The notes under the pieces are model-generated. The model was not told the origin of the DNA. It ran no database searches and saw only the letters and a list, made by a program, of their open reading frames with translations. Shown in pieces: positions 15,602 to 60,069 of a DNA stretch of 64,000 nucleotides. The stretch comes from an uncultured archaeon (GTDB taxonomy: Archaea > Nanobdellota > Nanobdellia > Woesearchaeales > CAIVOO01): the NCBI GenBank assembly GCA_903904885.1, contig CAIVED010000024.1, positions 1-64,000 of the forward strand, read 5' to 3'. Position 1 is the stretch's first letter; each line of letters opens with the position of its first letter. Made by a program: the position numbers and the translations under genes.

Positions 15602-15650
15602 GTTTGTTTAAATCATCATAAAATTATTTTTCTATTACAAAAATAAACCA

Positions 15651-15811
15651 TTTGCTGGGCAGGCCTTAATTCGGATGTTAGTTTAAGTTGTTTGCCGCGA
15701 TTGCCGGGCTTGCGTTAACCAGCCTTCGGCAGGCATTACTAATTTCTTGCGCATGGCAGGCGAGCATAAGAAGCGGGATAAGTATGGATGTTAATGCAAG
15801 AACCAGCAAAC
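15651..15811 (-). ncRNA. Dispersed structured element, copy B
   Basis: On the minus strand. P1 is GTTTGC (from 15811) paired with GCAAAC (ending 15690). The conserved TTCTTGCATTA, CGCTTCTTATGC, TGCCATGCGCAAG and GCAAGCCCGGCAATC blocks are present, as is the terminal ATTAAGGCCTGCCCAGCAAA (15651-15670). P3 is a short GCC/GGC hairpin. A TATA-like ctatataagt overlaps the stop codon of the upstream PAC2 gene, about 28 nt before the element, so it may have its own promoter. It fills the convergent gap between the surface-protein gene and PAC2. Confidence 0.6.
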
Positions 15812-15837
15812 GGAATTTTGTACGGGGAAATAAAGAA

Positions 15838-22548: not shown

Positions 22549-22576
22549 TTTCTTTATCTTAACAAATAAAAATATT

Positions 22577-22736
22577 TTTTCTGGGCAAGCATTAAAATTT
22601 CTTCTTTTTATTCAAAGTTGCGCATGATTGCCAGGCTTGCTTTTAACTTGCATTCTGCAAGTAATAATCTTTTCTTGCATGGCAATAATGCAGAAGAAGC
22701 AAATTAGACATCAAGCTTAATGCAAGAACCAGCAAC
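22577..22736 (-). ncRNA. Dispersed structured element, copy C
   Basis: Minus strand. P1 pairs GTTGC with GCAAC (22617-22621). The conserved TTCTTGCATTA, GCTTCTTCTGC, TGCCATGCAAG and CAAGCCTGGCAATC blocks are present. P3 is ACTTGCA/TGCAAGT with a GAA loop. P4 pairs GCAAGC with GCTTGC of the terminal TTTAATGCTTGCCCAGAAAA block (22577-22596). It lies 30 nt beyond the stop codon of the L35Ae gene, so it could be a 3' extension of that mRNA. No clear TATA box precedes it. Confidence 0.6.
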
Positions 22737-22765
22737 CGTGTTTTTGTTCAAAGAAACTAATAGAA

Positions 22766-59809: not shown

Positions 59810-59846
59810 TTGTTTTTGATTCATTTCTCGTAAATAAAATTCCGAG

Positions 59847-60026
59847 TATCTACTTCTCGCATTAGTCCTGATGTTCCATCCGCTTCTTCTGCTCTAGTGT
59901 CATGCAAGAAATAAATAATATGTATGAACTGCAGTTGATTGCTCTCTGCACATATTATTTATTGCAGCTCTGGCAATCGAGCCAGATATCAGATAATAAA
60001 ATAGTGCCTAAGAGCTGCACCAGAAA
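59847..60026 (+). ncRNA. Dispersed structured element, copy D
   Basis: Begins about 38 nt after the stop of the membrane-bound regulator. P1 pairs TATCT (59847-59851) with AGATA (59984-59988). Conserved CTCGCATTA, GCTTCTTCTGC, GTCATGCAAG and CTCTGGCAATC blocks. P3 is the longest of the four copies: AAATAATATGT pairs perfectly with ACATATTATTT (11 bp). P4 pairs GCAGCTC with GAGCTGC. It ends with the CTAAGAGCTGCACCAGAAA block (to about 60026). No own TATA is clear. Confidence 0.55.
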
Positions 60027-60069
60027 TCGTTTTATTTTTGAAAATCGTAAGTATGCCTTCACCCCAATA

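Follow-up and report, generated by a model that had tools for sequence, protein, structure and literature searches.

The element at positions 22,572 to 22,745 of the window, i.e., the whole 64,000-nt stretch of archaeal DNA that was analyzed, is best read as one copy of a MITE-like dispersed palindromic repeat of ~170–180 bp, a single strand of which folds into three nested hairpins; we place the probability of this reading at about 0.6. About 70 copies are scattered over the 1.31-Mb genome of the host and make up ~1% of it. Hairpin repeats dispersed in this way have been described well in bacteria but are, to our knowledge, little known in small-genome archaea.

The Four Copies in the Window

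The four copies found in the window (A to D) are real and strongly related. A covariance model built from them (R1) returned them with E values of 1e-38 to 1e-43, which are those of its own training set; a second model (R2) was built from 41 intact copies of the genome. Copy C is flanked by a 151-aa gene and the convergent rpl35Ae gene (ribosomal protein L35Ae), the latter identifying the genome as that of an archaeon. The first-pass annotation had described a terminal block that closes all four copies and pairs with an upstream segment to form a helix, P4. Such a block is indeed present in A (TTAAGGACTGCGCAGAAA), B (TTAAGGCCTGCCCAGCAA), C (TTAATGCTTGCCCAGAAA), and D (CTAAGAGCTGCACCAGAAA), but it is loose. 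The features discussed below are as follows.

22572..22745, minus strand: copy C, the copy studied, complete, 174 nt; R1 174.6 bits, E 1.6e-40; R2 158 bits
8775..8955, plus strand: copy A, adjoining an AMMECR1-family gene; R1 187.4 bits, E 1.0e-43
15646..15819, minus strand: copy B, adjoining a PAC2-family gene; R1 166.6 bits, E 1.7e-38
59837..60031, plus strand: copy D, with a longer P3 hairpin; R1 176.5 bits, E 5.5e-41
22729..22745, minus strand: left terminal inverted repeat of copy C, AAAAACACGGTTGCTGG (profile of ~60 copies)
22568..22584, minus strand: right terminal inverted repeat of copy C, CCAGAAAAAATATTTTT, with a T-rich end (profile of ~60 copies)
22720..22728, minus strand: P2 5′ arm, TTCTTGCAT; P2 mostly invariant in 41 copies
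22672..22680, minus strand: P2 3′ arm, ATGCAAGAA; U26-A67 extension with a compensatory C-G copy
22656..22662, minus strand: P3 5′ arm, ACTTGCA; double-sided changes, top-ranked covarying pairs
22646..22652, minus strand: P3 3′ arm, TGCAAGT; as for the 5′ arm
22634..22640, minus strand: P4 5′ arm, GCAAGCC; 96.2% of cells paired, 386/434 in 62 copies
22585..22591, minus strand: P4 3′ arm, TGCTTGC, within the terminal block; paired and covarying
22680..22684, minus strand: TGCCA motif, claimed 5′ arm of P1; conserved, no covariation with the claimed partner
22629..22633, minus strand: TGGCA motif, claimed 3′ arm of P1; counterpart of TGCCA in the right, inverted half, not covarying with it

Family Size and Distribution

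In the host genome, R1 gave 114 matches up to an E value of 10, many loci being matched on both strands, which identifies the element as a quasi-palindrome. R2 gave 71 matches, a few of which are pieces or halves of the element, and 70 loci were fetched and realigned, among them truncated half copies. Without inserts, the element measures ~160–196 bp. Copies are on average 69% identical to one another and no pair exceeds 85% identity, and there is thus no sign of recent copying. Even so, 73 of the 172 alignment columns reach 90% conservation or more; this suggests that the copies themselves are under selection and are not decaying neutrally.

No match was obtained in two other genomes of the same family, in the 37 nearest relatives, in 192 other genomes of the order, or among the best few candidates per genome scored in 370 genomes of the phylum. 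A search with a strict DNA pattern likewise gave no convincing match in the named genome collection and none in viral contigs. Homologues of quite different sequence could escape these searches. A pattern match in a Thaumarchaeota MAG (L071) was discarded as a chance hit, the rest of the element being missing. No Rfam family reached its gathering score in the window, and only chance-level matches occurred at copy C.

Anatomy of a Quasi-Palindrome

The left half of the element reads CTGG-TTCTTGCA-TTA, a loop, then CTTCTTCTGC..GA.TGCCA-TGCAAGAA; the right half, on the opposite strand and in the same order, reads CTGGGCAGGCC-TTAA, a loop, then GATTGCCA-GGCCTGC. Judging from this order of motifs, the two halves are imperfect inverted copies of one layout, P2 and P4 being their equivalent stems and P3 a central hairpin. 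Spacing is well kept: in 47 of 62 copies, the stretch that runs from TGGCA past TTAA to the second P4 arm measures 41 nt.

Terminal inverted repeats, as expected of MITEs, are found at both ends (TTnAAAnnAAAATCCCGTTTkCTGG), the consensus of the left end in a profile of ~60 copies being TTnAAAcAAAATyCCGTTTkCTGG. The ends TTnAAAnnAAAATCCCG..CTGG are common to both sides, T-rich inverted ends lie outermost, and in the same profile conservation fades ~20–30 nt outside CTGG/CCAG on either side. A closing helix joining the two ends was considered and rejected: the ends do not covary and are a sequence motif rather than a helix. Integron attC sites have RYYYAAC ... GTTRRRY ends and an integron integrase; here, the right end is CCAGAAAACGGGATTTTT, with no evident GTTRRRY.

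Several copies depart locally from this plan. A double hairpin of 54–59 nt, CGCAAGAAAA-n-TTTTCTGCGCGCAGAAAA-n-TTTTCTTGCG, whose stems are variable but self-complementary, is nested at different places in ~13 copies (L026, L037, L039, L040, L044, L050, L051, L055–L058, L062, and L070) and occurs almost only inside the element, the exceptions being at G000:C24:95870 and C6:1643. Double-hairpin and palindromic elements of mitochondrial DNA (PMC2670323, PMC7218506) likewise consist of two hairpins with variable complementary stems; the likeness, one of form and for an archaeal host, covers the nested insert and not the main element. Four copies (L063, L034, L023, and L058) carry extra partial left ends in tandem upstream at a spacing of ~52 nt, e.g., AAAATTCCGGTTGCTGGTTCTTGCATTTTTTCAAGCAAATGGCTCAAAT followed by the full element, and two truncated copies (L059 and L070) abut an apparent tRNA gene on the opposite strand.

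Evidence for and against Mobility

MITEs are multicopy elements of 50–500 bp without a transposase gene. The size and copy number found here, ~160–196 bp without inserts and ~70 copies, fall within this description, as does the intergenic location. A test for target-site duplications at fixed offsets, to which variable or decayed repeats are invisible, revealed no excess of direct repeats at any offset, and the element is for this reason named MITE-like rather than a MITE. The draft genome holds no gene for a Y1 (RAYT-like) transposase (PF01797), no DDE_3 transposase gene and no TnpB zinc ribbon (PF07282), the last speaking against an IS605-type omega RNA; none of the four transposase families searched in it provided a parental transposase bearing the ends of the element. 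Two DDE_Tnp_1 genes, at G000:C24:86610-87134 and C27:74486-75016 (L099 and L100), are ~69% identical over 1 kb of DNA; they were rejected as a source as the ends of the element are missing from their surroundings. A mobile repeat is favored by the inverted ends, the number of copies, the truncated halves and the lack of the element in relatives; the negative results above, together with the lack of any pair of copies beyond 85% identity, speak against it, and mobility is therefore an inference.

Hairpins P2, P3, and P4

P4 is a real, strongly covarying helix. As the first-pass annotation stated, it is perfect over the named 6–7 bp in copies C and D, with one mismatch each in A and B; in copy C, the seventh pair is broken. 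That annotation had offered the failure of the P4 arms to covary among more homologues as its own refutation, and P4 passed this test in 41 to 62 copies. When 62 copies were anchored on flanking motifs only and whole arms were shuffled, 386 of 434 cells were paired, against 330 ± 6 for shuffled arms (maximum 354 in 5000), a conservative count given that a few copies (L020, L032, L046, L050, and L056) are misplaced. Covariation was measured in 41 copies aligned by MAFFT without regard to structure; here, P2, P3, and P4 together had 95.3% of their cells paired and a covariation of 0.326, against 0.148 ± 0.009 for shuffles and <0.10 for all slid registers. P2 is nearly invariant (97.6% of cells paired), whereas double-sided changes affect 7 of 7 pairs in P3 and 4 of 7 in P4 (96.2% of cells paired). 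When 14,221 column pairs were ranked by mutual information in an unbiased scan, pairs of P3 and P4 took ranks 1–5 and 8. Three P4 pairs switched Watson-Crick state 9–10 times each, as counted by parsimony on a weakly supported tree of non-stem columns.

From the alignment, RNAalifold predicts three nested hairpins, with U26-A67 lengthening P2, where one copy has a compensatory C-G, and U138-A180 lengthening P4. Single sequences fold modestly better than shuffles (mean z −1.75 on the plus and −1.34 on the minus strand), and for copies A and C the fold of minimum energy is not that of the consensus. The hairpin model thus rests on covariation rather than on energy. It is most likely that the three hairpins were selected in single-stranded form, as RNA or as single-stranded DNA; with compensatory changes so unusually clear among the copies of one genome, it becomes possible to test which of the two it is.

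Genomic Setting and Possible Roles

Relative to the element, neighboring genes are convergent for 24 copies, codirectional for 39 (23 and 16) and divergent for 5 (n = 68), the element itself lying in either orientation. Divergent gaps thus host 5 of 68 copies, against 36% expected from length-weighted intergenic sequence (p = 4e-8, a rough figure with a baseline taken from the window only and crude gene calls behind the orientation counts). Copies often start 10–60 nt past a stop codon, and between convergent genes the element often fills almost the whole gap. Such placement is what one expects if insertions are tolerated at the 3′ ends of genes, and it fits a 3′-end role just as well.

The latter possibility, a functional 3′-end element selected at each site as a bidirectional terminator or as a 3′-UTR hairpin cluster on either strand, is unlikely, though the least unlikely of the alternatives. 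It would account for copies lying 10–30 nt past one or both stop codons and occupying convergent gaps nearly whole, for T-rich ends on both sides, for covarying stems and for strong site-specific conservation among divergent copies. However, an element present at only ~70 gene ends and absent from all relatives is not a general termination signal, and the same placement would arise if insertions elsewhere get lost.

With the left half written as CTGG-X-TTA-loop-TGCCA-X′, the arms X and X′ pair on one strand as P2, the center as P3 and the corresponding arms on the right as P4, and the pairing of P3 and P4 is kept through many sequence changes. Under the preferred reading of a MITE-like repeat, a trans-acting enzyme that works on the inverted ends would have spread the repeat within the lineage, and copies would have survived where insertion is harmless, namely in 3′ intergenic gaps; copies do sit in gaps past stop codons and avoid divergent promoters. 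Transcribed from either side, it would yield three hairpins and then a U-rich end, and such a folded transcript end would stabilize, process or end the transcript, as has been described for bacterial repeats of the ERIC and Correia types. Instead or in addition, the hairpins could be the single-stranded-DNA target recognized by the mobilizing enzyme. The element may therefore serve in 3′-end stabilization, termination or transposase recognition, all putative functions. It is rather doubtful, though conceivable, that it represents a new class of archaeal repeats in which it is the strand in its folded state, be it RNA or single-stranded DNA, that functions as the unit and the hairpins of the two inverted halves are read, for mobilization or use, by a lineage-specific archaeal enzyme.

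It is improbable that the copies are structured non-coding RNA genes standing on their own, each with its own promoter and transcribed from one strand. Hairpins that covary, plus-strand folds slightly more stable than those of the minus strand relative to shuffles, and an excess of G-U over A-C mismatches (30 to 15) would all suit RNA genes. However, misaligned copies account for part of this wobble excess, and in P4 the two kinds of mismatch are about even; an assignment of the strand of action drawn from it was consequently dropped. Furthermore, the upstream profile shows no consistent TATA box, codirectional copies occur in both orientations relative to their neighbors (23 and 16), and no Rfam family matches.

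P1 and the Proposed Pseudoknot

The first-pass annotation also proposed that P4 crosses a helix P1 (TGCCA/TGGCA) in a pseudoknot. A pseudoknot calls for two crossing helices that both have covariation support, and P4 has it while P1 does not. In 41 copies, P1 is 82.0% paired, against 82.4% for shuffles, with a covariation of 0.034 against 0.041; the best of its eight pairs ranks 613 of 14,221 in the unbiased scan, and its outermost pair needs the same bases as the extensions U26-A67 and U138-A180. Complementarity between TGCCA and TGGCA is expected from the inverted-repeat layout alone, and the two are better explained as a motif common to both halves of the quasi-palindrome: complementarity between the inverted halves of a palindrome is no evidence of tertiary contact. 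Both motifs are almost invariant, and since invariant pairs are silent, covariation cannot speak against a kissing contact between them, which is possible. The P2 loop (GCTTCTTCTGC) and the P4 loop (GCAAGAAGC) are in addition complementary over ~7 nt in many copies (22577–22745 of the window and others), which may mark a further contact between loops or again reflect the inverted layout. As for the suggestion that P2 competes with a pairing to a downstream TAATGCA, this pairing (CTTGCATTA/TAATGCA) does exist in copy A, but TAATGCA occurs in only 5 of 41 copies, and a switch through this unconserved partner was rejected. A compact or switching RNA knotted between P1 and P4 (and P2) is thus very improbable, for all that P4 is real and TGCCA and TGGCA could touch.

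Comparison with Known Repeats

REP/BIME sequences consist of hairpin units, paired and inverted, at the 3′ ends of genes, and REP/BIME-RAYT systems share such units in this location with the archaeal element; the archaeal units are far longer, and the genome holds no Y1 transposase gene. The YPAL/ERIC repeats of enterobacteria are ~127–169 bp long, occur in tens to hundreds of intergenic copies and have predicted hairpins (PMC2267715). Size, copy number, palindromy and intergenic hairpins are similar, whereas the archaeal element has three nested hairpins, two with long loops. QMITE2 of Coxiella burnetii is ~190 bp long and has 78 copies with inverted ends, mostly in 3′ untranslated regions and many of them truncated (PMC10969869). 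The archaeal element resembles it in size, copy number, inverted ends, 3′ location and truncated copies; it differs in that neither direct repeats nor a parental insertion sequence were found and in that its stems covary. No sequence kinship is claimed with either YPAL/ERIC or QMITE2. By analogy of form, the element looks like an archaeal cousin of the bacterial hairpin-forming mobile repeats.
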